NCBI RefSeq assembly: GCF_027409185.1
Contig: NC_084478.1
Span: 79,281,624 to 79,345,623 of the forward strand
Reading direction: 5' to 3'
DNA: 64,000 nt
Origin: Cynocephalus volans
Lineage: Eukaryota > Chordata > Mammalia > Dermoptera > Cynocephalidae
The stretch's first letter is position 1; every line of letters starts with the position of its first letter. The translations under genes and the position numbers were made by a program. Positions 1 through 47,190 of the stretch are shown here, piece by piece. The notes under the pieces are model-generated. The model saw only the letters and a program-made list of their open reading frames with translations. It was not told the DNA's origin and did not search any database.

Positions 1-955
1 GAATGAAACTAGATCCATACCTCTCACCATATACCAAAATCAATTCAAAATGGATCAAAGACTTAAATATAATACCTGAAACTATCAAACTCCTAAATGA
101 AAACAGAGGGGAAACACTTCAGGAAGTAGGACTGGGCATAGACTTTATGAACACAACCCCCAAAGCACAGAAAACAACAAAAATAAACAAATGGGATTAT
201 ATCAGACTGAAAAGCATCTGCATAGCAAAAGAAACAATTAACACAGCAAAAAGACAACCCACAGAATGAAAAAAACATTTGCAAACTATGCATCTGACAG
301 GGGTTAATATCCAGAATATACAAGGAACTCAAACAACTTAAGATTAAAAAAACACATAACCCAATTAAAAAATGGGCAAAGGAGCTGAATAGGCATTTCT
401 CAAAGGAAAACATACAAATAATCAACAGACACATAAAAAAAATCACACATTGAATATCATCTCATGCCAGTAAGACTATTACCAAAAGACAGAATAATAA
501 ATGCTGGTGAGGATGCAGAGAAAGAGGAAACCTCCTATACTGTGGAACTGTAAATTAGTGCAGGCATTATGGAGAACAGTATGGAGATTCCTCAAACAAC
601 TACAGATAAAACTGCCATATGATCCAGGATTCCCACTGCTGGGTATATACCCAAAGGAATGGAAATCATCGTGTTGAAGGGATACCTGCACTTCCATGTT
701 TATCACAGCACTATTTACAATAGCCAAGAGTTGGAACTAACCTAAATGTCCATCAGTAGATGACTGGATAAGGAAAATGTGGTATATATACACAATGGAT
801 CCTCTGACAAAAAAAATAATAAATTTTGCCATTCACAGAACATGGATGAACTTAGAGGAAATTATGCTAAGTGAAATAAGCCAGGCACTGAAAGAGAAGT
901 ACTGCATGTCCTCATTCACAAGTGGGAGATAAAAAATAAATAAATGAATTTTTTA
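1..955 (+). mobile_element. LINE-1 3' end (ORF2 C-terminus and short A-rich tail)
   Basis: The translation of the first ~270 bases ([20 protein letters not shown]) is the C-terminal part of L1 ORF2p, and it continues with breaks to about 930, where an A-rich tail (aaaaaataaataaatgaa) ends the element. The reading frame is broken (stop near 267, frame changes after), so this is a dead copy. The left end lies outside the window. At ~956 the sequence switches abruptly to an L1 in the opposite orientation. Confidence 0.9.
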
Positions 956-959
956 AAAA

Positions 960-3900
960 GATAATCGTATGGTTTTTGTCCTTGATTTTGTTGATTTGGT
1001 GTGTCACATTTATTGACTTGCATATGTTGCACCACGCTTGCATCCCTGGGATGAGTCCCACTTGATCATGCTGTATAAATTTTTTTGATATGTTGCTATT
1101 TTCTGTTTGCCAATATTTTGTTGAGAATTTTTGCATCTCTGTTCATCAGAGATATGGGCCTTTAGTTTTCTTTTATTGTTGTATCTTTGTCTGGTTTGGG
1201 TATCAGGGTGATGCTGGCCTCATAGAATGCGTTTGGGAGAATAGCCTCTTTTTCAATTTTTTGGAATAGCTTGAAGAGAATTGGTATTAACTCCTGTTTT
1301 AAAGTTTGGTAGAATTCAGCAGTACATCCATCCTGTCCTGGTCTTTTCTTTGTTGAGAGACTGCTGATTACTGCTTCAATCTTGCTGCTTGTTATTGGTT
1401 GGATCAGGTTTTCTATTTCTTCTTGGTTCAGTCTTGGTAGTTTGTATATGTCCAAAAATTTATTCATTTTCTCCAGGTTTACAAATTTGTTGGTGGATAG
1501 TTGTTTATAATTTGGTATCAGTTATAATGTCTCCTTTTTCATTTCTGATTTTATTATTTGGATCTTCTCTCTTTGTTTAGTTAGCCTAGCTAAGGCTTGT
1601 GTATTTTATCTTCTAAAAAAGCCAATTTTTTGTTTCATTGATGTTTTTTATCTTCATTTGGGTCTCTACTTATTTAGTTCTGCTGTGATATTAATTATTT
1701 CTTTTTGTCCTCTCATTTTGGGATTGGATTGTTGTTGTTTTCCTAGTTCTTTGAGTTGTAGCATTAGGTCATTTATTTGAAATCTTTCTATTCTTTTGAT
1801 ATAAGTGTTTATTGCAGTAAACATCCCTCTTAGTACTGCTTTTGCAGTATACCACAGGTTTTGGTATTATGTGTCTTTACATTCATTAGTTTCAAGAAAT
1901 TTTTTTGATTCCTTCTTCAATTTCTTCTTGGATCCATAGGTCATTCAAGAGCATGTTGTTTAATTTCCATATATTTGTACAGTTTAACTCATTGCGGTCT
2001 GAAAAGATACTTGAAATCATTTCACGTTTTTAAAATTTTTTTGAGACTTAATTTGTGACCTAACATGTGGTCTATCCTTGAGAATGTTCCATGTGCTGAT
2101 AAGAATGCATATTCTGTAGTTGTTTGATGAAATATCTGTAGATATCTGACAGGTCCAACTTTTCTAAGGTATAGGTTAAATTCTGTGTTTCTCTGTTGAT
2201 TTGTTGCCCAGATGATCTGTCAAGTGCTGAGCGAGGAATTTTCAGGTCCTCTACTATTATTGTACCAGAGTCTATCTCCTTCTTTAGGCCTAATAGTGTT
2301 TGCTTTATATGTCTGGGTGCTCCAGTGTTGAGTGCATATATGTTTATGATTGTAATGTCTTCTTGCTGGATAGATCTCTTTATCATTATATAGTGGCCTC
2401 CTTTGTCTCCTTTTAGGGTTTTTGGTTTAACATCTATTTTATCCAATATAAGAACAGCTACTCTTGCTCATCTTGGTTCCCATTAGCATGGTTTATCTTT
2501 TTCTGTCCTTTCAGTATTAGTCTGTGTGTGTCTTTACAGGTGAGGTGAGTCTCTTGTCAACAGCATAGAGTTGGGTCTAGCTTTTTAATCCAGTCAGTCA
2601 GTCTGTGTCTTTTGAGTGCGGAGTTTAATCCATTTACATTTATGCTTGTTGTTGAAAGCTATTGTCTTATGCCTGGCATTTTATCAATTTTTATTTGGAT
2701 GTTTTAAATACCTTTTGCTCTTTTCTTCCCCTTTTATTGTTTTTCTTTCATGTTAGCTGGTTTTTTGAGGTGGTAACATGTAGTTTCTTTCTCTTTCTCA
2801 TTTGCATTTTTGTTCTACCAGTGGGTTTTGTTCTTTCTTGTATGTTCATGATGGTGATTATCATTTTTTGGATTCTAGGTGCAGGACTCCCTTGAGAATT
2901 TCTTGCAGGGCTGGTTGTGTGTTGGTGACCTCCTGCAGCTATTGTTTGTCTGGGAAATACACTATTTCTCCTTAATTTATGAAGGATGGCCTTGGTGGTT
3001 ATAGTATTCTTGGCTGGCAGTTTTTTTCTTTTAGTATTTTTTTTTTTTTTGTCGTTTTTTCGTGACCGGCACTCAGCCAGTGAGTGCACCGGTCAGTCCT
3101 ATATAGGATCCGAACCCGCGGCGGGAGCGTCGCCGCGCTGCCAGCGCAGCACTCTACCAAGTGCGCCACGGGCTCGGCCCTCTTTTAGTATTTTTAATAT
3201 ATCATCCCACTTTCTTCTGGCCTGCAGAGTTTCTGTTGAGAAGTCTGCTGTTAGTCTGATAGGGGCTCCCTTATAGGTGACTTGATGCTTCTTTCTTGCT
3301 GCTTTTAGGATTCTCTCTTGTCTTTGAGCTTTGCCAGTTGAACTATAATGTGTCTCAGAGAGGATCTTTTAGGATTGAATCTGTATGGGGATCTTTGAGC
3401 TTCCTGAATCTGAAGGTCCATTTCTCCCCCTATACCTGGGAAGTTTTCCATTATTATTTCATTGAATAGCTTTTCAATGCCTTTTCCTTTCTCCTCCCCT
3501 TTTAGAACACCCATGATTTGGATGTTTCTGTGCTTAAGATTGTCTGCTAGCTCTCTTAGAATTTCTCCATTTTTAAAAATTATTATTATTATTTTTTGTC
3601 CACCTGGGTTATTTTTTTTTCACCTGGATTATTTTGAAGACAACCTTTGAGATCAGAAGTTCTTTCTTGTGCTTGCTCTAGCCTGCTGCTTAAGCTCTCA
3701 GTTGTGTTGTTTATTTCATTGAATGAATCCTTCAGTTCCAGGAGTTCTGCTCAATTCTTTTTTAAGATATTAATTTCTTTGCAAGTTTCCTCCTTAATAT
3801 CCTGGATTTTTTTTCATTTCCTTATGTTGTTTAACTGAGTCTCTCCATATCTCATTGAGTTTCCTTCAGATTATTGCTCAGAATTCCTTTTCAGTCACTT

Positions 3901-4385
3901 CAAGGGTTTCCTGTTCAATCATGTCTGGTATTTGAGAATTACGGTATTTTTTTAGTGGTGTCATAGTTCCTTGGTTTTTGTTATTTCTAGTCTCTCAACA
4001 TTGATGTGTGGTCATCTGGTAGAGCAGTTGCTTCTTCTATTACTTTGGAGTGGGCCTTGAGGAGAGAGACTTCCTCTTCTTTTTCTGGTTTCCACTGGTG
4101 ACTCTCTTTGTGTCAGTGCAGTTGAGTGGGCAGCAGGCCTACTGTACAGTGGCTGTGGCTGCTACTGTGGTGGTGACCTGCCCGTGTGGCAGCAGTGGCT
4201 GTAGAAGACCACCTGCATGGAAGTGGCATTTTCAAAGTGCTCCTGCCCACAGTTCCTACCAAAAGACCCTGTGTGTGCTCCTGCCTTCTGTCAGGCAGAA
4301 GATGATACCCACGACCCCTGCCTAGGACCTCATGCATGCTCCTGCCTTCTGCTGGGTGCCAAGTAAAAATTTTGTCAAAAACATT
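960..4385 (-). mobile_element. LINE-1, minus strand: 5' UTR, ORF1, ORF2 endonuclease and part of RT
   Basis: Read on the minus strand from right to left this is an L1 5' half. About 4385-3965 is 5' UTR, ORF1 begins near 3964, ORF2 near 2679 (endonuclease region) and the RT-proximal part ends near 960, just before the first RT catalytic motif. Minus-strand fragments such as [15 protein letters not shown] (around 1030-1075) and [18 protein letters not shown] (around 1300-1350) are L1 ORF2 RT sequence. Frames are interrupted throughout. A SINE sits in the ORF1 region at 3042-3180. The 5' UTR part 4022-4220 is homologous to a segment of the composite elements at 34200-34415 and 43430-43640. The 3' half is missing at 960, where a plus-strand L1 3' end abuts. 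Confidence 0.88.
3042..3180 (-). mobile_element. tRNA-derived SINE (CYN-like), young
   Basis: Minus-strand SINE with a tRNA-type head (box B GGGTTCGGATCC read on the minus strand) and a poly(T) run on the plus strand at 3042-3050 representing the A-tail. It is flanked by a 15-base target-site duplication, tcttttagtattttt, at 3027-3041 and 3181-3195. It lies inside the ORF1 region of the older minus-strand L1, so it is the later insertion. Confidence 0.9.
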
Positions 4386-4884
4386 GTCTCTCTTAAGAAC
4401 ACACAAAAATAGGCAGAGTGAGATATCAAAGGAAGAAATTTCATCCTGAACAAAGAATACTTCTGGTTTAGCAGCTATGGGAAGAGAACTGGTTGCTGTA
4501 ACATCAGAATTGGGTGAGGGGTATCTTCAGGTCCCAGCACAGAAGCATTGAAGAAAGTTACTGAAAAAGTTAACTGAAATCATTGAAGAGAAAGGCTACT
4601 ATTTGCAAACAAGTCTCTAATGTCAGTGGAACAGATTTTTTGTAATCTAATGTTGTCACAAATCTACAATGCTGAGAAATACAAATCAAGACCTGGCTAT
4701 AAAGCAGAGGTGGTTGAATTGTTAGATTCTCAAAGTAACCCAGCCATAAAGATTTGATTGAAACAGGAGAGCAAGAGATCACTGTTAGTGTTGCCATAGA
4801 AATTTGCCTGCTCCAAATATTTACCATGTGTCATTACATATCTCATTGATGACAAAAACTTTCCAGAGAGATGACACTATTTTA
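4386..4884 (+). pseudogene. Unidentified degenerate coding-like segment
   Basis: No known repeat is evident. Between about 4560 and 4840 plus-strand translation gives coding-like stretches in successive frames, for example IIEEKGYYLQTSL, then MSVEQIFCNLMLSQIYNAEK, then DLIETGEQEITVSVAIEICL, separated by frame changes and stops. The pattern fits a decayed processed pseudogene, but I do not recognise the parent gene. It could also be an internal part of an old transposon. Confidence 0.3.
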
Positions 4885-5340
4885 AAATACACTTGGAAGG
4901 TCGTGAGGGCAATGAAGAATGCCTGAGTTCAGTCATATGGCTAAATACAAGATAATATATGCAAATATCAATTTTTCCTGTGTACCAATAACAACAAATT
5001 AGAAAATATAATGGGGAAAAAAAGATCTACAAAAAAGTATAGAAATGCATAACAGACTGTGTGAGTAAATGAAGAGATGTACCATGTTCCTGGATGAGAA
5101 AACTCAATGTTGTGAAGATATTATTTGCAAATTAAATTGTATGTTTAATACACTTCCAATTAAAATCCTAGTAGAGTTTTGTTTGGAACTTGAAAGTTAT
5201 TCTCAAATTCATCTGAAAGAATAAACAGTAGAAAATAAATAGGCAATTTTTGAAAACTAAGAGTAATGAGGAGGAACTAGCACAACTAGACGTTAAAACA
5301 CATTATAAATATCCAAACATTAAAATAGAATAGTAAATAG
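4885..5340 (+). mobile_element. Ancient LINE-1 fragment
   Basis: The stretch around 5080-5220 (accatgttcctggatgagaa followed by a diverged aattaaaatcctagtagag) matches the part of L1 ORF2 where young copies in this window read 'tcttggattggaag ... atccccatcaaaattcc'. It is strongly diverged and non-coding, so an old L1M-type copy. Confidence 0.6.
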
Positions 5341-12600: not shown

Positions 12601-13660
12601 ATAAACCAATTTCCATTTTGAAAAAAGCAAACAAGCCATTGTTTCCAATTTGTGGGCAACAAACTGCTGGGGAGTAGGGGAGTAACTTAATTATTACAAG
12701 GACTCTGGAAATCCCTGCCTGACCCAAGCATTGTCTAGAATGAATGAATAATATGCTTGCAACATATGTTTTTTCCAAATGTATGTAAATATTGTCATGA
12801 TGTATACACATAGTGGCTTTAGTCTGTTATATATTTCTCAATCAATTGATATTGAAAATACAGCTATTATCACGTGGAGGTCCATGGCATTTTAAACATT
12901 AAAATACTAAAGCAAGGGTTGGGATCTGGTGCTAAAAAGAAAATATACACAGATAAACTCTTTGTAGCTTGAGTGTCTTCTCAACGACTTACTTCCTTTT
13001 TTTCCCCAGGGGAGCAGGAGGAAATAGAGAAGATTTCACACAGTATTAAAAGTTAACCCAGGAGGCTTGCTTTCTGGAGAAGACAATCTACAAGGATGAG
13101 AGAGAGTGAAGAGGGGGTTGATGTAGGCCCAGGATATCTTATTCTGGAAAGACAGAATTCTTATCTCGCGTGTACTGCCAGGGAAGTCCCCACCCTCAAC
13201 TACAGGGATGTCAACACATCCATAGGGCAGTACTGCGGCAACACCTGAGCATGACATTTGTTCTACGGCCAGGCTGATTTCCAGTCATCAGGAAGACTTG
13301 GTGTGGGAGGACCCTCCAGGGATAGGGGAGTCAAAGTATGTGCAACTTTCTTTTTTGCCAAATTGCCTCAAAGGTCAGCACCTGCTTTCCTTTCTCTCAT
13401 TCTTTCTTCTCCCGTTTTGTAATGTGCCCCTTGTCCCCTATTTCTGTATAGCCTCTTGTCCCCAACTCAGGTCAACAGGACACACTCTTCCATAAGACTC
13501 CAGTGATCTCATTACATGTACAAAACCATCTGATCACAGACCTCAAACTAAGACGCTCACTTACTGTTCGTTCAGTCAACACTGAGGGCCTAGGACTTTC
13601 CAGGCATTAGGAGAAAATACACTATCAAACAAGATATGGTCCCTACCCCTTCAGAAGTAC
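12600..13660. other. Unique-looking intergenic DNA
   Basis: No gene or recognisable repeat seen. Confidence 0.45.
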
Positions 13661-13661
13661 A

Positions 13662-13925
13662 CAATCTTTTTTTTATTGAAACATGATTGTAGATACCTGT
13701 GGGGTACCATGTTGAATACCCATACCTGTGTGCAATATGTGATACTCAAATCAGGATCATTGGTATATTCTCCATTACACATGTAATCATTTTTTGTGGC
13801 CCTTTACCAATTTCTTGCTAACCCCCTCCTTTCTCCCTTTCCCACCTCTTGTAACGTCAGTTCTGTTCTCTCCTTTTCAAAGTTCAATGTATTGTTGTAT
13901 CTTTCTTTTTTTTATTAGTTTATTT
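13662..13925 (-). mobile_element. Old L1 3' UTR fragment
   Basis: Starts with a T-run then 'attgaaacatgattgtagat' and 'gtggggtaccatgttgaata', the reverse complement of an old L1MA/MB-like 3' end; compare the related 3' end at 31422. Confidence 0.65.
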
Positions 13926-24660: not shown

Positions 24661-24766
24661 TGGACTTCTGGTCAAGATGGTGGAATAGACGGTCCCTAGA
24701 GTCACTCTCTCCCACAAATCAACCTATTTAAACTATAAAAATGTAACATCAAGTTCATACGGAATG

Positions 24767-25440
24767 GGGAGATGTCCAGCGGGGGAGGCAGAAGCTCCGC
24801 GGAGACCACATGCCCTGCGGGACCACTGTTGCACGATCCAGCAGATAAGGTTCACTGCTGCCACCCAGCTCCATTCCCAGCCCAGCTCAGTGCACACAGA
24901 GAGGGGAGACATCCGGCAGGGGAGGCAGAGGCTCTACAGAAACCACACACCCTGTGGGGCCGCCACTGCATGATCCAGCAGGTAGGCTTCACTGCAGGCA
25001 CCCGGCTCCATTCCCAGCCTGGCCTAGTGCGCTGGGAGCAGGGAGACATCCGGCAGGGGAGGCGGGAACTCCACGGGGACCACACTGCTGCCACGCAATC
25101 CAGCAGCCCGGCCCAATGCATACGGAGTACAGAGTCATCCAGCAAGGGAGACAGAAGCTCCGTAGAGTCCACACACCCTGTGCGGGAACTGCTGCCGTGC
25201 GATCCAGCAGCAGTAGGCTTCACCGCCGCCACCCGGCTCCATCCCAAGCCCGGCCTAGAGTACATGGAGCAGGGAGACAACCAGCAGGGGAAGGGGAAGC
25301 CACAGAGACTACACGCTCTGCGGTGCCTCGGTGCATCCCAGCAGCCCAGGCCAGAGCACACGGAACAGGGAGAAGTCCAGCAAGGGAGGTGGAAGCTCAG
25401 CAGAAACCACACACCCTGCAGTACTGCCCCATGATCCAGC
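24767..25440 (+). repeat. L1 5' UTR tandem monomers (~136 and ~90 bp)
   Basis: Unit starts marked by 'gggagacatccggcagggga'-type sequence fall at about 24767, 24903, 25040, 25130, 25272 and 25367. Spacings are about 136, 137, 90, 142 and 95, so long and short units coexist; the short ones lack the 'taggcttcactgc ... cggctccattcccag' part. G/C-rich and stop-poor, giving long spurious frames on both strands. By analogy with mouse L1 monomers it is probably the promoter. Confidence 0.88.
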
Positions 25441-26813: not shown

Positions 26814-26982
26814 GCTGAGCCCGTGGCGCACTTGGTAGAGTGCGGCGCTGGGAGCGCTGTGATGCTCCCACCACGGGTTCGGATCCTATATAGGACTGGC
26901 CGGTGCACTCACTGGCTGAGTGCCGGTCACGAAAAGGACAAAAAATAAATAAATAAATAAATAAAAATAAAAATAAAAATAA
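26814..26982 (+). mobile_element. CYN-like SINE at the ORF2 start of the L1
   Basis: tRNA-type head (ggctgagcccgtggcgcact; box B 'gggttcggatcc'), tail module 'gctgagtgccggtcacgaaa', then an A/T-rich (AAAT)n tail. TSD aataaaatgctagg at 26800-26813 and 26983-26996; the duplication contains the ORF2 initiator ATG. Confidence 0.94.
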
Positions 26983-31002: not shown

Positions 31003-31420
31003 ACCTCAACACTGCTATTGGAATATGACAGATCTCCTAAACAAAAAAGTGATTTAAAAAAGTAGGGAGCTAAGTAACACAATAAATAATGTACACTAGG
31101 CTGTCAAATGAAAGGAACTTAGTGAGCAGGACAAGAAATTACAGTTTCTTTACAAGTGTACATAAATCACTCACATTTATTATTTACATAATTAAAAAAT
31201 AAAAATGATCTTAGTAAATAAAAAAAAGCAGAAATTCTACATACTTTAGTCACAGGACATAATACAGTAAAGTTAGAAATAATAAATATAGAATTAGAGA
31301 GCACAGCTGAATGGGAATTAAAAATATTCTCTTGACAACTGACTTAGAAAATAAATTTAATAAAATATAAATATAGCATGTAAAAATGTATGGAAATACA
31401 ATGTTATCTCAAAGCATCTT
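31003..31420 (+). mobile_element. Probable old L1 remnant at the insertion target
   Basis: 'ggagacctcaacactgctat' next to the TSD resembles an L1 endonuclease-region sequence, and 31270-31330 (agttagaaataataaatata, gaatgggaatt) resembles the following ORF2 part, strongly diverged. Confidence 0.4.
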
Positions 31421-32490
31421 TTTTGTTTTTGTATTTTAACATTTATTTGTATATATTTGTGGGGTACAGTGTGTTGTTTCAATACATGCACATACTGTGC
31501 ATTGTTTCACTTAGGATAGACAGCATAGCTTTGTACCTGTTAATCCACCACTTCCCCTTCGGAACCCCCCCTTCCCTCCTGGCCTCTAATAACCATTATT
31601 CTACTCTCTACTTCTATGGGAATTCTATGAGAACCGCTTTTTAGATTCCACATATTAGTGAGATCATGCAGTATTTGTCTGTGTCTGGCTTATTTCACTT
31701 AACACAATGGTCTGCAGTTTTATCCATGTTGCTGTAAATGACAGAATTTCATTTTTTTACAGCTGAATAGCATTCCATTGTGTGTATATACCACAGTTTT
31801 TTATCCATTCATCCATTGATGGGCACATTTAGGTTGATTTCATCCTTTGGCTACTGTGAATAGTGTTACAGTGAACATGAGAGTGCAGGTGTCTCTTCAA
31901 TATGTTGATTTCATTTCCTTTGGGTATTTACCCAGTAGCGGGATTGCTGGATCATAAGGTAGTTCAATTTTTAGTACTCTGAGTAACCTCCATACTGTTT
32001 TCCACAATGGTTGTACCAACTTACATTCCCATCAACAATGTAGAAGAGTTCCCTTTTCTCCACATCCTCACCAGCATTTATTATTTTCTGTCTTTTTGAT
32101 AATAGCCATTTTAACTAGAGTAAGATGATATCTCGTTGGTGTTTTAATTTGCATTTCCCTGATGAGTAGTGATGTTGAGGTTTTTTTCATGTGCCTCTTG
32201 GCCATTTGTATGTCTTCTTCTGAGAAATATCTGTTCAGGTCCTTTGCCCATTATTTAATTGGGTTATTTGGGGGTTTTTTGCTATTGAGTTGTTTAAGTT
32301 CCTTATATAGTCTGGATATTAACCCCTTGTCTGCTGTGTAGTTTTCAAACACTTTCTCCTGTAGGTTGTCTTTCTCCTCTGATAATTGTTTTCTTTGCTG
32401 TGCAGAGCTTTTTATTTTGATGTAGTCCCATTTGTCTATTTTTTATTCAGTTGCCTGTGCCTTTGTAGTCTTGTTCAAAAAAGCACTGCC

Positions 32491-34710
32491 AGGGCTTCCA
32501 GTCGAGATGGCAGAATAGACAGTCCCCAGCGTCACTCTGTCCCACAAATCAACAAATTTACAACTATAAAAATGTAACATCATCCAAGCTGGGGCCACTG
32601 GAGCTCAGAGGAAGGGAGGAGAGACCTACGGAACTCATGAAGGTGGGAGAAACCACGATGAGAGAAAGAAAAAACTGCTCTCTGCATTTCGGGTTGTGGC
32701 CACTTTAATGCTGGAGCACATGGAGCAGGAGCCGTCAGAAGCCACAGCTGTGCCCTTTAGATGGAGTTACTTGGAGGCGGAAGGAGAGAAGAGGACTTTG
32801 GCAGCCCCCAGGACAGCAAGACCACTAATAGGGTTCCCATGGACCCATGCAGGAGCGAGGAGCCAGAACAGCTGAAAAAGGGGAGCCATTCAGAAGCCGG
32901 TGAGTCATCACAAGGGACCGGCGCAGGGCCCGTCCCATGGGAAGTGTTTGGAGCATGGGCGGTGGAGGAGACGGGCCCACCAGCGGAACACTGGGACACA
33001 GCAAGGACAGCCGATCCACCCCACAATCAGTGCAGGAACACTCAGAGGAGACTGGTCGGGAATGCAGAATTGCATGGGGTACAGTTTGATGAAAAAACTC
33101 AGGCCCAGATGGGAGTTTCTACACAACCCAGGTGCATCAAGTACCTGGAGAGCCGTAAGTACCTATAAGGTCAACCATTAAACCCTGAGCTGCACAAAAA
33201 GCCTTCCCTAGGGAAACAGTAGCAAAGCAACAATTTACTCAACCACACAGCTCAAGCACTGGTTCCCACAGAAAGTTCCTCCATGTTAGAAGTAAGCATA
33301 AGACAAAAAGTTGGTTCCAGTCCAGGCACGCCATCAATGCCTTGGGGCCCACCATGAGACATGAGGCATGGAGCCAGGGGCAGGACCCCCACCCACAACC
33401 ACTCACATGACCAGCCCCTCTGAGGATTAGAGCCAGGACCAGACCCCACTCCCACATCCAGGCACACCACAAACTCCTTGGGTCCCGCCCAGGGACCCGG
33501 AGCTAGCAGCTGGAGACTGGACCCCCTTCCCAGACCCAGGCACACCATGACAGCACCTCAGGGCCCCACCCAAGGGCCTAAGACATGGAGAAAGGGACCA
33601 GACCCCCCTCCAGCAAACAAGAACACTGTGCCAACACCTCAGGGCCTGACCAGGGACCCGGGGCTTGGAGAAGGGAACCAGACCCCCCTTCCACAACCAG
33701 GTACATCTTGCCAGCACCTTGGGGCCTGCCCGGGGTCCCAGGGTATGGAGCCAGGGACAGGACCCCTATTCCCACAACCAGGCACACCACACCAGCACCT
33801 CAGGGCCCACCCAGGCTCCCAGGGTATGGAGCCGGGAACAGGACCCCCATTCCCACCACCAGGCTCACCATGCCAGCACCTCAGGACACACCCAGGGTCC
33901 TGGGGTATGGATCTGGGGACCGGACACCCCTCCCATAACCAGGCACACTGGGCCAGCACACCGGGGCCCACCTGGGGACCCAGGGTATGGAGATGGGGAC
34001 CAGACCCCCCTCCTCCAACCAACCACTCCATGCCACTGCCTCAGGGCCCACCTGGGGAACTGGGGCATAGAGAAGGGGACCAGACTCCCCTCCCACAATG
34101 AGGCACACCATGCCAGCACCTCAGGGCCCGCTAGGGGACTCGGGGTATGGAGCCAGGGATCAGACACTCTCCACAGCCAGGCACATTGCCAGCACCAAGG
34201 AGCATGCCAAAATCATCTCCTCCATGTGGGTGGCCTACTACAGCCACCACAATATCCATGGCTGCCGTGAAGGCGGCTAGATGCCACAACCACCACGCAG
34301 ATGGTCTGCCAGCCACTGGATGCATTGATACAAGGAGAGTCACCAGCAGAGATAAAGAAAGGAGGAGGATGTCTCTCTCCACAGAGCCCATTCCAGAGTG
34401 ACAGAAGAAGTATCTGCTCTATGATAATATTGGGAGACCTGAACACACCCCTCAGCATTGGACAGATCATCTAGGCAACAAATCAACAGAGTAAACATTA
34501 TTCTTTTAGAGGGAGAGAAGAAATCTAGGGTGATTAGAGGGGGAAGAGGGGAGGGAAGAGGGGATGGGGAGGGATTGGACAAGGGGCATAAAGAATAATT
34601 ACGATTTGTAACAATATATATGCTAGTAATATTGATTTGATCAACATATCTTAATGTTGAACCCAAAAAATATGTATAATCAATTTTGATTCAATAAAAA
34701 TTAAATTTAA
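32491..34710 (+). mobile_element. Composite VNTR retrotransposon (SVA-like layout), apparently complete
   Basis: Bounded by a perfect 14-base TSD aaaaaagcactgcc (32477-32490, 34711-34724) within an older L1. Parts in order: L1-type 5' end (32491-32580, compare 24664-24750); non-repetitive G/C-rich region to ~33320; VNTR of ~80-base units (33323-34200); L1 5' UTR-like segment (34201-34415, compare minus strand 4022-4220); L1 ORF2 endonuclease-region fragment (34432-34491, compare 27418-27476); a G-rich tract (34538-34573) and an A/T-rich 3' end with A-tail. No ORF1 or RT is present, so it must be mobilised in trans, presumably by L1. A truncated relative lies at 43090-44021. Confidence 0.88.
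33323..34200 (+). repeat. VNTR of ~80-bp units inside the composite element
   Basis: Unit marker 'ccaggcacaccatgccagca'-like recurs at about 33458, 33535, 33615, 33697, 33778, 33858, 33938, 34015, 34096 and 34177: spacing 77-82 bases, about 11 units including the first irregular ones. Units share 'cctcagggcccacc' and 'gggtatggag'. The array is free of stops in several frames, which explains long open frames on both strands here. Confidence 0.93.
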
Positions 34711-34756
34711 AAAAAAGCACTGCCCACTCCCATTCATATAGCATTGATCCTGGAGC

Positions 34757-37691: not shown

Positions 37692-37806
37692 AAATAACTT
37701 TTAGGCTTTCAGTCAAGACGGCAGAGTAGATGGTTCCTAGCATTGGTCTCTCCCACAAATCAACCAATTTGCAACCATTAAAAGGCAACAATGGGAGGCC
37801 CAAGAG

Positions 37807-38050
37807 CCATGCCAGAACAGGCAGGAGCCGCATGCCACGGGACCCCCAACCAGGCCAGCGCCCACTGCTCAGAGAGGCCTGAGAACCACCAGGCCCACAC
37901 ACGCCGAGTCAGCCATGCTGGAACAGGTAGGTGCCCTGGGACCCCCAGCTCAGGCCTGTGCCCACAACACAGAGAGGCTTGGGAGCTGCCAGGCCCACAT
38001 GCCCCAAGCCAGCCATGCCAGACAGGCAGGTGCTTTGGGACCCCCAGCCC
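37807..38050 (+). repeat. L1 5' UTR tandem monomers (~100-105 bp)
   Basis: 'gccatgccagaacaggcagg' recurs in variant form at about 37807, 37912 and 38010, followed each time by a 'gggacccccag' motif and 'aggcccaca'. About 2.5 units; the sequence differs from the 136/90-bp monomers of the other L1. Confidence 0.82.
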
Positions 38051-38143
38051 AGGCTAGTCCCCACTGCCCAGAATTGGCAATCCCTTCAGGATCCAGGCCA
38101 GACTTCAGGGTGGAATGAGTGGACCTTGATACCTCCTGTCACA

Positions 38144-39030
38144 ATGACTAAACACCAAAGGAAAGATAGCAGAAATATGAAAAATCAAGAAAGTACATCA
38201 CCAGCAAAGGAAAATAATAACTCTCAAGCTCTAGATCCTATAGAACAAGAAGTCCTTGAAATGACTGACAGGAATTTCGAGCAACAATTCTAAGAAAACT
38301 AAATGAGATATAAGAAAACTCAGACAACGCAATGAAATGAGAAAAAATATACAGGACCTGAAAGAAGAAACATACAAAGAAATCAATGCCCTAGAAAAGA
38401 ATGTAGCAGAGCTTGTAGAGCTGAAGGATTCATTCAACAAAATAAAAAACACAACAGAGAGTCTAACCAGCGGCTAGAACAACCAGAAGAGAGAATTTCT
38501 GACCTTGAAGACAGACTGTTTGAATTAACACAGGAAGACCAGAAAAAAAGAAAAAAGAATTTAAAAAATTGAAGAAAATCTAAGAGAGATAACAGACAAC
38601 CTTAAGCACTCATATGTCCGAATCATGGGTATTCCAGAAGGGGAGGAAAAAGGAAATGGCATTGAAAACATATTCAACAAAATAACAGCAGAAAATTTCC
38701 CAGGTATAGGGAAAGTCACAGATCTTGTCAGATTCAGGAGGCCCAAAGATCCCCAAACATATTCAACCCAGTAAGGTCCTCTCCAAGACATGTTATAGTC
38801 AAACAGGCAAAACTCAAAGACAAAGAAAGAATCTTAAAAGCTGCAAGAGAGAAGTGGCAAGTCACCTATAAGGGAACTCCAATCAGAATAACATCAGACT
38901 TTTCATCAGAAACCCTAAAAGCCAGAAAAGAATGGGATGATATATTCAAAATACTAAAGGACAAAAATTGCTAGCCAAGAATACTTTACCCAGCAAAGCT
39001 ATCCTTCTGAAATGAAGGACAAATCATAAA
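38144..39030 (+). pseudogene. L1 ORF1p, degraded
   Basis: N-terminal part MTKHQRKDSRNMKNQEST at 38144 is homologous to 25630. Later matches include 'attccagaaggggaggaaaa' at 38631 and the C-terminal region near 38970-39030. Several frameshifts and stops, more than in the copy at 25630. Confidence 0.85.
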
Positions 39031-39448
39031 TTTTTCAGACAAACAAAAACTGTGGGAGTTCACTACCACACAACCAGCCTTACAAGAAATTCTCAAGAGA
39101 GTACTGGGTTTGATACCACAAAAACAACCATCATTGCCATGAATACTCAAGAAAGAACAAAACCTACCAGTAAAATAAAAATGCTAACAATAAAGAGAAA
39201 ACATAATTTGTCTACCACCCCAAGAAACCAACAAATATAGAAGACAAACAGAAAATCAGAAAAAAAGCAACAAAAGATATATAAGACATCTAGACAAAAA
39301 TTAATATTTTTGTCTAGGGGTAAATCAACACCTTTCATTAATAACTCTAAATGTAAAAGGATTAAATTCCCCACTAAAAAGACACAGACTGACTGACTGT
39401 ATTAAAAAGATAGACCCAACAATATGCTGCCTTCAAGAGACTCACCTC

Positions 39449-39619
39449 GGGGCCGGCCCATGGCTCACTCGGTAGAGTGTGGTGCTGATAACACCCAGGC
39501 CACAGGTTCAGATCCCATAAAGGGATGGCCAGTTAGCTCACTGGGTGAGCATGCTGCTGACAACACCAAGTCAAGGGTTAAGATCCCCTTACTGGTCATC
39601 TTTTAAAAAAAAAAAAAAG
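39449..39619 (+). mobile_element. Full two-unit CYN-like SINE
   Basis: First tRNA-like unit 'ggggccggcccatggctcac' with box B 'aggttcagatccc'; second unit 'ggccagttagctcactgggt' with 'gggttaagatcccc'; then 'tggtcatctttt' and a 14-A tail. TSD gagactcacctc (39437-39448, 39620-39631). The second box B (ggttaagatcc) is a variant. Dimeric architecture. Confidence 0.92.
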
Positions 39620-39724
39620 GAGACTCACCTCACCTGTAAAGACACACATAGATTAAGAGTGAAAGGATGGAAAAAGATATACTGTGCAAATAGAAATGAA
39701 AAACGAGCTGGAGTAGCTATTCTT

Positions 39725-39905
39725 TTTTTTTTTTTTTTTTTTTTTTAATTTTATTTTGTCGATATACATTGTAGCTGATTATTGCTCCCCATCACCAAAA
39801 CCTCCCTCCCTTCTCCCTCCCCCCTCCCCCCCAACAATGTCCTTTCTGTTTGCTTGTCGTATCAACTTCAAATAATTGTGGTTGTTATATCTTCTTCCCC
39901 CCCCC

Positions 39906-39940
<35 letters not shown>

Positions 39941-41848
39941 TTATATATTAATTTTTAGCTCCCTCCAATAAGTGAGAACATGTGGTATTTCTCTTTCTGT
40001 GCCTGACTTGTTTCACTTAATATAATTCTCTCAAGGTCCATCCATGTTGTTGCAAATGGCAGTATTTCATTCGTTTTTATAGCTGAGTAGTATTCCATTG
40101 TGTAGATGTACCACATTTTCCGTATCCACTCATCTGATGATGGGCATTTGGGCTGGTTCCAACTCTTGGCTATTGTAAAGAGTGCTGCAATAAACATTGG
40201 GGAACAGGTATACCTTCAACTTGATGATTTCCATTCCTCTGGGTATATTCCCAACAGTGGGATAGCTGGGTCGTATGGTAGATCTATTTGCAATTGTTTG
40301 AGGAACCTCCATACCATTTTCCATAGAGGCTGCACCATTTTGCAGTCCCACCAACAATGTATGAGAGTTCCTTTTTCTCCGCAGCCTCGCCAGCATTTAT
40401 CGTTCATAGTCTTTTGGATTTTAGCCATCCTAACAGGGGTTAGATGGTATCTCAATGTGGTTTTGATTTGCATTTCCCGGATGCTGAGTGATGTTGAGCA
40501 TTTTTTCATATGTCTGTTGGCCATTTGTATATCTTCCTTAGAGAAATGCCTACTTAGCTCTTTTGCCCATTTTTTAATTGGGTTGCTTGATTTCTTCTTG
40601 TAAAGTTGTTTGAGTTCCTTATATATTCTGGATATTAATCCTTTGTCAGATGTATATTTTGCAAATATTTTCTCCCACTCTGTTGGTTGTCTTTTAACTC
40701 TTTTAATTGTTTCTTTTGCTGTGCAGAAGCTTTTTAGTTTGATATAATCCCATTTGTTTATTTTTCCTTTGGTTGCCCGTGCTTTTGGGGTCGTATTCAT
40801 GAAGTCTGTGCCCAGTCCTATTTCCTGAAGTGTTTCTCCTATGTTTTCTTTAAGAAGTTTTATTGTTTCGGGGTGTATATTTAAATCCTTAATCCATTTT
40901 GAGTTGATTTTAGTATACAGTGAGAGGTATGGATCTAGTTTCATTCTCCTGCATATGGATATCCAGTTATCCCAGCACCATTTGCTGAAGAGGCAGTCCC
41001 TTCCCCAGTGAATAGGCTTGGTGCCTTTGTCAAAGATTAGATGGCAGTAAGTGTGTGGGTTGATTTCTGGATTCTCTATTCTATTCCATTGGTCAGTGTG
41101 TCTGTTTTTATGCCAGTACCATACTGTTTTGGTTATTATAGCTTTGTAGTATAGCTTAAAGTCAGGTAGTGTTATGCTACCAGCTTTATTTTTTTTGCTC
41201 AGCATTGCTTTGGCTATGCGTGGTCTTTTATTGTTCCATATAAATGTCTGAATAGTTTTTTCCATTTCTGAGAAAAATGTCTTTGGAATTTTGATGGGGA
41301 TTGCATTGAATTTGTATATCACTTTGGGGAGTATGGACATTTTCACTATGTTGATTCTTCCAATCCAAGAGTATGGAATATCTTTCCATCTTCTTGTATC
41401 CTCTCTAATTTCTCTCAGCAGTGGTTTGTAGTTCTCATTATAGAGATTTTTCACATCCTTGGTTAACTCAATTCCTAAGTATTTTATTTTTTTGGTGGCT
41501 ATTGTAAATGGGCAGGCTTTCTTGATTTCTCCTTCTGCATGTTCACTATTGGAGAAAAGAAATGCTACTGATTTTTGTGTGTTGATTTTGTATCCTGCTA
41601 ATGTGCTGAAATCATTTATCAATTCCACCAGTTTTTTTGTAGAGGTTTTAGGCTGTTCGATATATAGGATCATGTCATCTGCAAACAGGGACAGTTTGAC
41701 TTCATCTTTTCCAATCTGGATGCCCTTTATTTCCTTCTCTTCTCTGATTGCTCTGGCTAGTACTTCCAACACTATGTTGAATAGGAGTGGTGAGAGTGGG
41801 CATCCTTGTCTAGTTCCTGTTCTTAAAGGAAAAGCTTTCAGCTTTTCC
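39725..41848 (-). mobile_element. Young 5'-truncated LINE-1 nested in the older L1
   Basis: T-run on the plus strand at the left end (A-tail on the minus strand), reversed L1 3' UTR with a (TG)n at 39910-39937, then ORF2 C-terminal half. TSD ctggagtagctattctt, 17 bases, perfect (39708-39724, 41849-41865). Truncated just upstream of the RT catalytic motif. Little decay: one open frame of 518 codons remains. Confidence 0.95.
39955..41772 (-). pseudogene. L1 ORF2p C-terminal half, one in-frame stop
   Basis: Minus-strand frame 41772-40216 starts [20 protein letters not shown], includes the RT catalytic LFADDMILY, the thumb and the C-terminal Cys-rich region ([18 protein letters not shown], spacing C-x3-C-x7-H-x4-C). 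It ends at TGA 40218-40216; the same frame then continues to 39955 with the usual ORF2 end (EKYHMFSLIGGS). Other copies have CGA (Arg) at that position (30510 region and 62546 region), so the stop fits a CpG transition. Non-functional anyway because the N-terminal half is absent. Confidence 0.93.
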
Positions 41849-43089
41849 CTGGAGTAGCTATTCTTATATCAGATAAAATAGACTTTAAAGCAAAAACCAT
41901 AAAAAGAGATTAAAAAGGCCACTATACAATGATAAAAGGATCTATCCATCAAGAAGACATAACAATCATAAATATATATGCACCCAATGTCAGAGCAGCC
42001 AGATTTATAAAGCAAACACTATTAGATCTAAAGAATGAGATGGACACTAACACCATAATAGCAGGGGACCTGAACACCCCACTCTCAACATTGGACAAGA
42101 TTATCTAGGCAAAAAAATCAATAGAGAAACACAAGATCTAAACAACACTTTGAACCAGTTGGACTTGGCAGATACCTACAGAACATTTCATCCAACGACC
42201 TCAGAATATTCATTCTTCTCAACAGCTCATGGAACATTCTCCAGGATAGACCACATGATAGGCCATAAATCAAGTCTCAACAAATTCCAAAAAAATTGGA
42301 ATTATTCCATGTATTTTTTCCAATCACAATGGATTAAAATTAGAAATCAATAATAAATGAAACTCTGGAAACTATACAAAAACATGGAAATTAAACAACA
42401 CTGTACTTAATGACATTTGGGTCCAAGAAGAAATTAAACAGGAAATCAAAAATTTTCTTGAAACTAATGAAAATAATGACACATCCTACCAAAACCTGTG
42501 GGATACTGCAAAAGCAGAACTAAAGGGGAAATTTATTGCATTAAATGCTTACTTCAGAAGAATGGAAATATGGCAAATAAACAACCTAACACTTCACCTT
42601 AAAGAACTAGAAAAACAAGAACAATCCAAACCCAAAGTTAGTAGAGGGAAAGAAATCATTAAGATCACAGCAGAACTAAAAGAAATAGAAACCCCCAAAA
42701 TGATACAAAAGATCAATGAAACAAAAAGTTGGTTTTTTGAAAAGATAAATTAAACTGACAAACCTTTAGCAAGGCTAACAAAGAAAAGAAGAGAGAAGAC
42801 CCAAATAACAAAAATTAGAAATGAAAAAGGTGATATTACAACTGATACCTCAGAAATACAGGGAATCATTAGAAAAAACTATAAACAACTATATGCCAAC
42901 AAATTTGAAAAGCTGGAAGAAATGGATAAATTTCTGGGCACATACAAACTGCTAAAACTGAGCCAAGAAGATATAGAAAATCTGAACAGACCAATAACAA
43001 TAAAAGAGATTGAAGCTGTTATGAGAAGGCTCCCAACAACGAAAAGCCCAGGACCTGATGGGTTCACTGCAGAGTTCTACCAAGCCTTC

Positions 43090-44021
43090 TTATTTTTTTT
43101 TTTATTGTCCAGGCCAAAAAAATTATATATTTTTATAATTTTTTTATTGAATCAAGATTATACGTATTTTGGGGGTTCAACATTGAGATATGTTGATAAA
43201 ATCAATATTACTAGCATATATATTGTTACAAATTGTAATTATTCTTTGTGCCCCTTGTCCAATCCCTCCCAACCCCCGTTTCTCTTCCCCCTCCCCCCTC
43301 TAATTACCCTAGATTTCTTCTCTCCTTCTGAAAGAATAATGGTTACTCTGTTGATTTGTTGCCTAGATGATCTGTCCAATGCTGAGAGGGGGGTTCAGGT
43401 CCCTCAATATTATCATAGAGCAGATGCTTCTTCTGTCACTCTGAAATGGGCTTTTGTGGAGAGAGACATCCTCTTCTTTTCTTTATCTCTGCTGGTGACT
43501 CTCCTTGTGTCAATGCACTCCAGTGGTTGGTGGACCATTTGAGTGGTGGTTGTGGTGTCTAGCCAATTTTGTGGTAGCCATGGTTATTGTGGTGGCTGTG
43601 GTGGGCCACCCACATGGAGGTGATGTTTTTGGCATGTTCCTTGGCACTGGCAGTATCCCTGGTTGTGGGGTGTGTATGGTCCCGGCTCCATATCTCGGGT
43701 CCCTGGGCAGGCCCCAAGGCACTGGCGTGGTGTGCCTTGTTGTGGGAAGGGGTTCCAGTCCCCTTTTCCATGCCTCAGGTCCCCAGGCAGGCCCCAAGGC
43801 ACTGGTGCAGTGTGCCTGGTTGTGGGAGGGGGGTCCGGTCCACAGCTCCATGCCTCAGGTCCCTGGGTGGGCCCTGAGGCACTGGCATGGTGTGCCTAGT
43901 TGTGGGAAGGTGTCCAGTCCCTTTTTCCATGTCTTGAGTCCCTGAGCAGGCCCCAAGGTGCTGGCAGGTTGTGCCTGGTTGTGGGAGGGGTGTCTGGTCC
44001 CCTTCTCCATGCCTCAGGTCC
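43090..44021 (-). mobile_element. Truncated second copy of the composite VNTR element
   Basis: On the minus strand: about 4-5 VNTR units of ~80 bases (43640-44020), the L1 5' UTR-like segment (43430-43640), the same endonuclease-region fragment (43346-43405), a G-rich tract (plus strand C-rich, 43261-43300) and the A/T-rich 3' end with A-tail (T-run 43091-43103). TSD ctaccaagccttc / ctaccaaaccttc (43077-43089, 44022-44034; one mismatch). 5'-truncated within the VNTR. Confidence 0.9.
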
Positions 44022-46382
44022 CTACCAAACCTTCAAAGATTAATTGATACCAATCCTCTGCAAACTTTTCCAAAAGACCAAAACAGAGGCCATTCTCCCA
44101 AACTCATTCTATGAGGCTAACATCACCCTGATACCAAAACCAGACAAAGATACATCAAAAATAGAAACCTACAAGCCACTATCCTTGATGGATATAGATG
44201 CAAAAATTCTTAGTAAAATACTAGCTAACAGAATACAGCAACACATACACAAAATTATACACCATGATCAAGTGGGATTCATCCCAGGGATGCAAGCTTG
44301 GTTCAAAATACCCAAATCAATAAACATGATACACCACATCAATAAAAGCAATGACAAAAACCATATGATCATCTTATAGCTGCTGAAAAATTATTTGACA
44401 AAATTCAACATTTGTTCATGATAAAGACTCTACAAGTTAGGTTTAGATGGAAAGTATCTCAACACAATTAAAGCCATATAAGATAAGCCCACTGCCAATA
44501 TCATCCTGAATGGGCAAAAGTGAAAAGCTTTTCCCTTAAGAACAGGAACTAGACAAGGATGCTCACTCTCACCACTCCTATTCAACATAGTGTTAGAAGT
44601 CCTAGCCAGAGCAATCAGAGAAGAGAAGGAGACAAAGGGCATCCAGATTGGAAAAGATAAAGTCAAACTGTCCCTGTTTGTGGATGACATGATCCTATAT
44701 ATTGAACAGCCTAAAGCCTCTACAAAAAATTCTTAGAGTTGATAAATGATTTCAGCAAAGTTGCAGGATAAAAAATCAACACGCAAAAATTGGTAGAATT
44801 TCTATACTCCAACAGTGAACATGCAGAAAAAGAAATCAAGAAAGCTAGCCCATTTACAATAGCCACCAAAAAAAAAAAAAATACTTAGGAATAAAGTTAA
44901 CCAAGGATGTGAAAAATCTCTACAAAGAGAACTACAAACCACTGTTGAGAGAAATTAAAGAGGACACAAGAAGATGGAAAGATATCCCATGCTCTTGGAT
45001 TGGAGAAATTAACATTGTGAAAATGTCCATATTATCCAAAGCTATCTGCAGATTCAATGCAATCCCCATAAAAATTCCAATGACATTTTTCTCAGAAATG
45101 GAAGAAACTATCCAGACATTTATATGGAATGACAAAAGACCACACATAGCCAAAACAATCCTGAGCAAAAGAAAATAAAGCTGGTAGCATAACACTACCT
45201 GACTTTAAACTACACTACAAATCTATAATAACCAAAACAGCATAGTACTGGCATAAAAACAGACACATGGATCAATGGAGTAGAATAGAGAACCCAGAAA
45301 TCAACCCATACACCTACAGCCATCTGATCTTTGACAAAGGCACCAAGTCTACACACTGGGGAAGAGACTGCCTCTTCAGCAAATGGTGCTGGGAAAACTG
45401 GATATTCATAGTCAGGAGAATGAAACTAGACCCGTACCTCTCACCACATGCCAAAATCAACTCAAAATGGATTAAAGAATTAAATATACATCCTGAAATA
45501 ATAAAACTCCCTAAAGAAAACATAGAGGAAACACTCTAGGAAGTAGAATTGGGTATAGACTTCATGAATAGGACCCCAAAAGCACAGGCAACCAAAGGAA
45601 AAATAAACAAATGGGATTGTATCAAACTAAAAATCTTCCGCACAACAAAAGAAACAATCAACAGAGTGAAGAGACAACCAACAGAGTGGGAGAAAATATT
45701 TGCAAAATATACATCTGACAAAGGATTAATATCCAGAAAACACAAGGAACTCAAATAACCCAATTTAAAAATGGGCAAAGGAGCTGAATAGGCATTTCTC
45801 AAAAGAAGATATTCGAATGGCCAGCAGACACATGAAAAAATGCTCAACATCACTCAGCATTCGAGAAGTGCAAATCAAAACCACTTTGAGATACCGTCTC
45901 ACTCCAGTTAGGATGGCTGATATCAAAAAGACTGAGAATGATAAATGCTGATGAGGTTGTGAGAAAAAGAAACTCTCATACAATGTTGGTGGGACTGCAA
46001 AATAGTGTGGCCTTTATGGAAAATAGTATGGAGGTTCCTCAACCAATTACAGATAGATCTACCATATGATCCAGCAATTCCACTGCTGGGAATATACCCA
46101 GAGAAATGGAAATCATCATGCCGAAGGGATACCTGTATGCCCATGCTTAGTGCAGCACTATTTACAATAGCCAAGAGTTGTTACCAACTCAAATGTCCAT
46201 CATCAGATGAGTGGATAAGGAAACTGTGGTATATTTGCATAATGGAATTCTGCTCTGCTATAGAAAAGAATGAAATACTACCATTTGCAACAACACGGAT
46301 GGACTTAGAGAAAATTATATTAAGTGAAATAAATCAGGCTCAGAAAGAGAAATACCACATGTTCTCACATACCTGTAGGAGC

Positions 46383-46413
<31 letters not shown>

Positions 46414-46535
46414 ATACAAAGAAATAAATGGTGGCTGGGGAAGAAGACACAATAATCACAACAATTCCTTGAACTTGTTAAGACAAGTGAACAGATATGA
46501 TGTAGTGTGGGGGGAGTGGAGAGGGAGAGGAGTGA

Positions 46536-47190
46536 AAAAGCAACAGGTAAAGTGTTGTTTTGCCTCCCATGGATTTGCCACCCCTTTTCCCCTGGGTGAC
46601 AGAGCTGCCAAAGATTACTCAAAGCCCATCTCTTTTGAGCAGTGAGAAGCCCCAGAAAGAGGTTAATATCCCAGAACTTCCTCAAGCATGAGACATTTCT
46701 TCCATTTGGGAAATTAACCATGAATTGGGGTTCTCTTCCTGCATTTATTCTCCAGACCAAGAAGTTACAAGAAGAGACATAGGTGGGGGTTTGCTAAGTA
46801 CAGTTTAACAAGTTTTACAATAGAAGCTCGTAACATGCACTAAAAACAAGTCAGATGACATTCTGTTAGGCAATTAAGTGATCCACTAACAAAGGCTTGA
46901 TTTAGCAAGCATTCCTTTTCCCTCTAGCAACTTTTTAGTAACTTTTCATATCAATAACTTGTCTGTCTTTGAGCCAGCAACCTTGCTGTGTTGTAATTCT
47001 TATCTTGCAACAGAGACTCAATAGCCTGGGGGAAATTTCCTGTTCTTTGCAAGGTCAATATTTGAAACTGCAAGGCTTTGGAAAACCAGGCCCTGCAAGG
47101 TACATTTGTTTTATGAATCCTCTACAGTAAAGAGACATGAAAATCAACTACAATGCATCTTAAGAAGTTAAATTTTTTAAAAAATCTTTT
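46536..47190. other. Non-L1 DNA inside the TSDs of the second L1
   Basis: Follows the L1 3' UTR G-rich tract (46508-46535) and ends at the right TSD. It lacks the usual L1 terminus (compare 30915-30970, 'ttttggtaatgggtcataat'). No repeat or gene recognised; it might be 3' transduced DNA, a switched template, or an unrecognised LTR. Confidence 0.55.

Follow-up and report, generated by a model that had tools for sequence, protein, structure and literature searches.

What kind of element occupies a 2.2-kb insertion that combines a VNTR with pieces of L1 in the colugo Cynocephalus volans, and by what route did it arise? The insertion lies in a stretch of 64,000 nt of contig NC_084478.1, which was analysed as a whole and is referred to here as the window. 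A preliminary description had read it as a member of a composite retrotransposon family with an SVA-like layout, evolved independently in this lineage and mobilised in trans by L1. Our analysis supports a many-copy family that lacks coding capacity, bears a VNTR, is made of L1 pieces and carries L1-type insertion marks. As to its origin, we consider it likely that internal deletion of a LINE-1 gave rise to this non-autonomous family, in which 5'-UTR repeats turned into the VNTR.

The window copy is flanked by a TSD that is perfect over 14 nt, as first described, and is divided here into six parts, M1 to M6 (Table 1). The A-tail reported along with the TSD stood only in part: the tail region is A-rich, but the tail of this copy is short and hardly distinguishable, consisting of eight As, six of which were counted within the TSD. 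The reported absence of ORF1 and RT was borne out, since in a search with L1 protein pieces the matches to the element (E < 1e-3) came from the endonuclease region alone. Of the 27 listed ORFs, 7 were compared with Pfam; none had a match above cut-off, and the one sub-threshold match is attributable to chance. The four Rfam matches all fell under their gathering scores, with no Alu or SRP RNA family at E up to 1. In an empty-site test of this copy the joined flanks aligned with an L1, but the test is a weak one, as the right flank alone scored 20, below the shuffled maximum of 39.

Table 1. Positions in the window of the element, its parts and junctions, its second copy and a related L1
Feature	Position	Strand	Basis or remark
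Whole element	32491-34710	+	flanking TSD; parts M1-M6 in order
TSD, 5' copy, 14 nt	32477-32490	.	exact match to 34711-34724
TSD, 3' copy, 14 nt	34711-34724	.	exact match to 32477-32490
M1, L1 5' end, 92 nt	32491-32582	+	L1 matches in the window
M2, 753 nt	32583-33335	+	kept by full-length family members
M3, VNTR of about 80-nt units	33336-34196	+	TRF array at 33436-34196
M4, end of L1 5' UTR, tether-like, pre-ORF1 block, about 225 nt	34197-34421	+	match to window L1
J1, M4/M5 junction	about 34421/34422
M5, L1 endonuclease-region scrap, about 75 nt	34422-34497	+	79-82% identity to three L1s in the window
J2, M5/M6 junction	about 34497/34498
M6, L1 3' UTR, 213 nt, with AATAAA and A-rich sequence at its end	34498-34710	+	match to 3' UTR in L044
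Second copy, 5'-truncated inside the VNTR, within an L1	43090-44021	-	82% identity over 880 nt; same junctions
Second-copy TSD, 13 nt with one mismatch	43077-43089 and 44022-44034
Older L1, 5' UTR end and ORF1 start, carrying the M4 block	3800-4300	-	M4 alignment

The proposal that the insertion represents a family was tested by searching the genome (2.81 Gb, 130 contigs) with its 3' end. This yielded 1,885 first-look candidates. Scores were computed for the best 40, the window copy included, and all 39 other scored loci were fetched with about 5.5 kb of upstream sequence. Because only best-scoring matches were taken, the fetched copies are biased towards close relatives of the window copy. 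Among these best of the 1,885 candidates, M6 is preceded by the endonuclease scrap or its junction in 39 of 39 loci and is joined to the end of ORF2 in none of the 39, while the M4 block is present in 37, the exceptions being loci L022 and L023. The family claim was thereby upheld, and the possibility that only two copies exist genome-wide fell with the 39 further loci. The junctions J1 and J2 are the same in 38 of the 41 copies aligned over M4-M6 (the 39 loci and the two window copies), a few of which have small internal deletions; the alignment of 38 copies excludes L022 and L023, which are truncated at the junction, and L036, which has a deletion in M4.

The 38 copies differ from their majority sequence by a mean of 0.061 K2P (range 0.043-0.090) and from one another by a mean of 0.102; for comparison, two pairs of L1 stretches in the window differ by 0.046 and 0.122. 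Linked variants among these copies indicate at least two subfamilies. Locus L022 additionally holds, at 4500-5111 on the minus strand, an older relative that is 67-84% identical by part and has the same order of parts, so the family plan is not recent.

Independent insertion was examined through the flanks, with a TSD required to be exact, at least 9 nt long and to contain at least four letters other than A. Such a TSD was found at 13 of the 23 full-length copies, compared with a mean of 1.8% and a maximum of 10% when flanks were re-paired at random as a control. The ten full-length copies without an exact TSD of at least 9 nt may reflect decay or misplaced ends. Same-strand flanks were unrelated both upstream of the 23 copies and downstream of the 40 loci, apart from one 26-nt upstream match, and the tails of many copies are A-rich or consist of AAAT-type repeats. 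Segmental duplication and satellite amplification were ruled out by the separate TSDs and unrelated flanks.

Four of the six parts trace to L1, and they do so in L1 order: the 5' end, the pre-ORF1 block, the endonuclease scrap and the 3' UTR. The L1 5' end noted earlier was recovered as M1, which matches the L1 at 24662 with 86% identity over 91 nt (E 2e-23; z 32, with 0 of 200 shuffles reaching the score) and the L1 at 37704 with 78% identity over 87 nt. M1 was found in 22 of the 39 copies fetched as best matches of the 3'-end search. In the majority row the family begins with GTCAAGATGGCAGAATAGAC, which we take to resemble the start of human L1.

The neighbouring part M2 is 81-91% identical across the 22 M1-bearing copies, yet it could not be traced to L1. 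It had no match elsewhere within the window and none beyond shuffles in the 5' UTRs of the L1s at 24.7, 37.7 and 4.2 kb or of the L1 in locus L035. Against the 700 nt upstream of the M4 block at eight L1 loci, the score of M2 was reached by 10-186 of 200 shuffles, and over the separate comparisons of M1 and of M2 the range was 10-187; these eight L1s may themselves be 5'-truncated. A coding role for M1-M2 was also considered, as the majority row contains a 135-aa ATG ORF, and was rejected: in 21 aligned copies of 23 the longest such ORF measures anything between 43 and 184 aa, and there was no family match above cut-off.

The L1 5' UTR-like block of the preliminary description corresponds to M4, which aligns with an L1 at about 4020-4250 on the minus strand, close upstream of its ORF1 (z 29.5, 0 of 200 shuffles). 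This L1 likely represents the parent lineage of the family. A genome query with its 5' UTR end and ORF1 start gave 6,343 first-look candidates, and the 40 that were scored were 77-85% identical to it, the query itself aside. M4-like sequence stood just before ORF1 in all eight of the L1 loci examined (L048-L055, with L048 being the window's own), covering most of M4 in L049 and L050, two pieces of it in L053 and its last ~140 nt in the others. Because the query held both the M4 block and the ORF1 start, this is not an independent test of the arrangement; it shows that the arrangement is common in one L1 lineage. In locus L035, an L1 at 1800-2900 on the minus strand also has sequence similar to M4 in its 5' UTR (z 10); a sequence resembling the end of M4 lies several hundred nt further on, just before ORF1.

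The block from the L1 endonuclease region was likewise confirmed, as M5. The 3' end, by comparison, is not the distinct sequence it had been taken for; M6 is the L1 3' UTR of another L1 lineage. It matched the 3' UTR following ORF2 sequence in locus L044 with z 21 (0 of 300 shuffles), and also the 3' ends of older L1s in the window (z 15.5 at 13660-13920 and z 7.6 at 31400-31620, both minus strand). For the younger L1 at 30.8 kb, the 3' UTR gave no clear match (z 4.5, reached by 1 of 200 shuffles), and the relatives of M6 in L1 are only about 66-72% identical to it.

The central array agrees with the approximately 80-bp VNTR originally noted: TRF reported a period of 80, 9.6 copies and 71% matches, and its G+C content is 64%. 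Comparison among copies, which had been suggested as a check, revealed that the array is variable. The M2-to-M4 stretch measures 240-1,669 nt in 22 full-length copies, whose whole length is 1,578-3,029 nt, and between 1 and 20 units were called per copy (23 copies), with a spacing of mostly 78-81 nt. Mean unit identity was 0.732 both within and between copies (225 units, at least 60 aligned positions), so that no recent homogenisation is seen, and arrays of differing length therefore appear to draw on an already diverse pool of units. Between copies, the last units were 0.771 identical and the first units 0.711.

We compared this array with the eight ORF1-bearing L1s, using the 700 nt that precede the M4 block in each. 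In five of the eight it beat all 200 shuffles (z 5.9-8.6) and in the other three its score was reached by 2, 4 and 6 of 200, a modest likeness among G+C-rich repeats, for which dinucleotide shuffles can flatter scores. The result with the window's own L1 (4.2 kb) was marginal (1 of 200 shuffles, and 2 of 300 in a second run), and two L1 5' UTRs with unrelated repeats gave no match to the array. The repeats of the older relative in L022 match only some of the eight L1s, and L052 has a 63-nt tandem repeat directly upstream of its M4-like block. Elsewhere in the window, L1s carry other tandem repeats after the common 5' end, at 24766-25085 (137-nt units) and 37839-38054 (100-nt units), both unrelated to the array of the element. 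L1 5' UTRs in this genome may exchange repeat arrays often.

The L1 order and orientation of the recognisable pieces are most simply explained by an L1 that lost its coding part through one or two deletions. In an L1 related to the 3800-4300 lineage, the whole interval from the end of the 5' UTR to the 3' UTR would have been removed, apart from about 75 nt of the endonuclease region, leaving the L1 5' end, the 5'-UTR repeats and the 3' UTR in place. The repeats would then have turned into an array with 1-20 units, each about 80 nt long. YY1 binds a conserved sequence at the start of L1 (excerpt of PMC11602158), and the RNA of the family would probably be made by RNA polymerase II from the retained L1 5' end, which is a putative promoter and L1-like start. 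L1 ORF2p would act on this RNA in trans by target-primed reverse transcription, which would produce the TSDs, the A-rich tails and the 5' truncation; it is from these insertion marks that we infer trans-mobilisation by L1. M2 would presumably be the 5' UTR of the parent, and the number and order of the deletions are likewise presumptive. Against the deletion model, M2 has no match in any L1 5' UTR examined, and neither M1 nor M2 turned up upstream of M4 in the eight L1s. No L1 was found that matches both ends at high identity; M1, M4 and M6 were seen in L1s only separately, at about 66-86%.

The failure of M2 to match L1 in any test would be expected if the element were a true composite in the manner of SVA, assembled from different sources: the 5' end of an L1, an M2-VNTR cassette of foreign origin and remnants of L1. 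The ends also fit such a history: M1 is like the younger L1 at 24.7 kb and M6 is of an older 3' UTR type that does not clearly match the 3' UTR of that same L1, so the two ends may stem from different L1 lineages. We nevertheless regard a composite origin as unlikely, as M4 genuinely corresponds to the block before ORF1, L1s carry similar repeats upstream of that block, and the recognisable pieces keep the L1 arrangement. Because of the L1 order, the array resembling the L1 repeats upstream of the pre-ORF1 block, and the L1 3' UTR, derivation by deletion explains the element better than an SVA/LAVA-style composite. Of the SVA-like analogue originally proposed, the coding-less VNTR family of L1 pieces thus stands, but the composite mode of assembly is not supported.

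The junctions bear on another possibility, that a spliced L1 RNA was reverse transcribed, as in SpIREs, and later amplified. The endonuclease scrap resembles an exon between two junctions, and an AG lies near the start of the scrap in the L1s at 24.7 and 37.7 kb. In the two L1 5' UTRs compared, neither of them necessarily that of the true parent, the break has no GT. Moreover, the breaks share TACCA at J1 (5' UTR TACCAGATGAC, endonuclease region TACCATAATAG) and ACA at J2, both read by eye and without a control. Together these features favour microhomology joining or template switching, and splicing appears quite improbable. Even less can be said for an autonomous L1 family sampled only as deleted copies, or for a duplicated block in place of an insertion family. 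Either might be entertained because only the best 40 of 1,885 candidates were scored, but the deleted structure is present in 39 of 39 loci and the copies have separate TSDs and unrelated flanks, making both highly improbable. Internal deletion of an L1 thus remains the origin that we prefer.

Among known systems, the VNTR composites SVA, LAVA, PVA and FVA are described as hominoid-specific and as having in common a 5' region of CT-hexamer and Alu-like sequence; in SVA, the units of the VNTR measure 30-50 nt (excerpt of PMC4432496). As far as that excerpt describes them, these elements share with the colugo family a non-autonomous nature, a central VNTR of variable length, TSDs and L1-type insertion, and the SVA array is also G+C-rich and variable in number. 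The colugo element differs in that it starts with an L1 5' end, its identified parts are L1, and its unit is about 80 nt. Membership in the SVA/LAVA/PVA/FVA group was rejected on the lack of a CT-hexamer/Alu-like 5' region and on the length of the VNTR unit. The family may be similar to SVA and LAVA in working style, and it seems to have arisen independently of ape SVA and in a different way.

The closest kind is the RIME/ingi pair. RIME of Trypanosoma brucei is a 0.5-kb deletion product of the LINE ingi (excerpt of PMC2323293), and, going by that excerpt, the two families have in common a deleted coding region, retained LINE ends and presumed mobilisation by a LINE protein. In the colugo family, the LINE ends are likewise kept, the coding region is deleted, and the same junctions recur in independent insertions. 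Unlike RIME, it is 1.6-3.0 kb long, has a variable array and an endonuclease scrap, and its host belongs to a far-away lineage. HAL1 (half-L1) is also a non-autonomous L1 derivative, with several origins in mammals, and encodes ORF1p (excerpt of PMC5753468), whereas in the colugo family nothing besides the scrap matches ORF1 or ORF2; assignment to HAL1 was dismissed given that neither the protein-piece search nor Pfam (7 of 27 ORFs) produced an ORF1 match.

SpIREs arise by splicing within the L1 5' UTR or from the 5' UTR into ORF1 and are compromised for further rounds (excerpt of PMC5860796). Missing internal L1 sequence and L1 insertion marks are common to SpIREs as excerpted and the colugo family, but the latter was amplified as a family. 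A SpIRE would have its junction at an L1 splice donor and acceptor and would retain ORF2. The colugo family was not classed with them, since the two L1 5' UTRs compared lack a GT where the break lies and ORF2 is absent save for the scrap. For the 5' half of the element, the closest picture is offered by the mouse L1 5' UTR, where tandem monomers of variable number are followed by a tether and ORF1 (excerpt of PMC9022269). In that account the mouse repeats sit in ORF-bearing L1s, whereas the colugo array precedes the M4 block, the scrap and the 3' UTR.

The family suggests a route by which a VNTR passenger can arise through deletion alone, and it is an independent system for asking what role a VNTR has in L1-driven mobility; it also provides insertion markers for the host lineage. 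A broader reading is that an L1 outside the apes shed its genes, kept and lengthened its promoter repeats and became a long-lived VNTR passenger, that the array itself aids transcription or trans-mobilisation, and that the likeness to SVA and LAVA is convergence reached by deletion. We put this forward tentatively, as a possibility towards which we lean somewhat less than away from it. A literature search recognised no publication describing the family among the matches listed; the term VNTR is absent from PMC9141288, and colugo and Galeopterus are absent from the main text of PMC13174262. If the family is already in a repeat library, the value of our analysis lies in the origin story only.

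The second copy in the window has a clear empty site, as its joined flanks read through the site against the L1 at 28.2 kb. At its 3' end (43090-43140), a short unique sequence, which may be a small 3' transduction, separates two A-rich stretches. The surrounding region, 37704-46540, is nested: an L1 is broken by a SINE-like repeat (39452-39616), by a younger L1 at about 39740-41850 on the minus strand, and by the second copy. At the start of the window (1-4300), the 3' part of a plus-strand L1 extending to about 955 meets the 5' part of a minus-strand L1 beginning at about 960; ordinary twin priming does not yield this orientation. tRNA-like SINE repeats occur at about 26824-26960 and at 39452-39616, and presumably resemble the CYN SINEs of colugos. 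Of the two tRNAs that ARAGORN called across the window, one, at 39526-39600, falls inside the second of these repeats.
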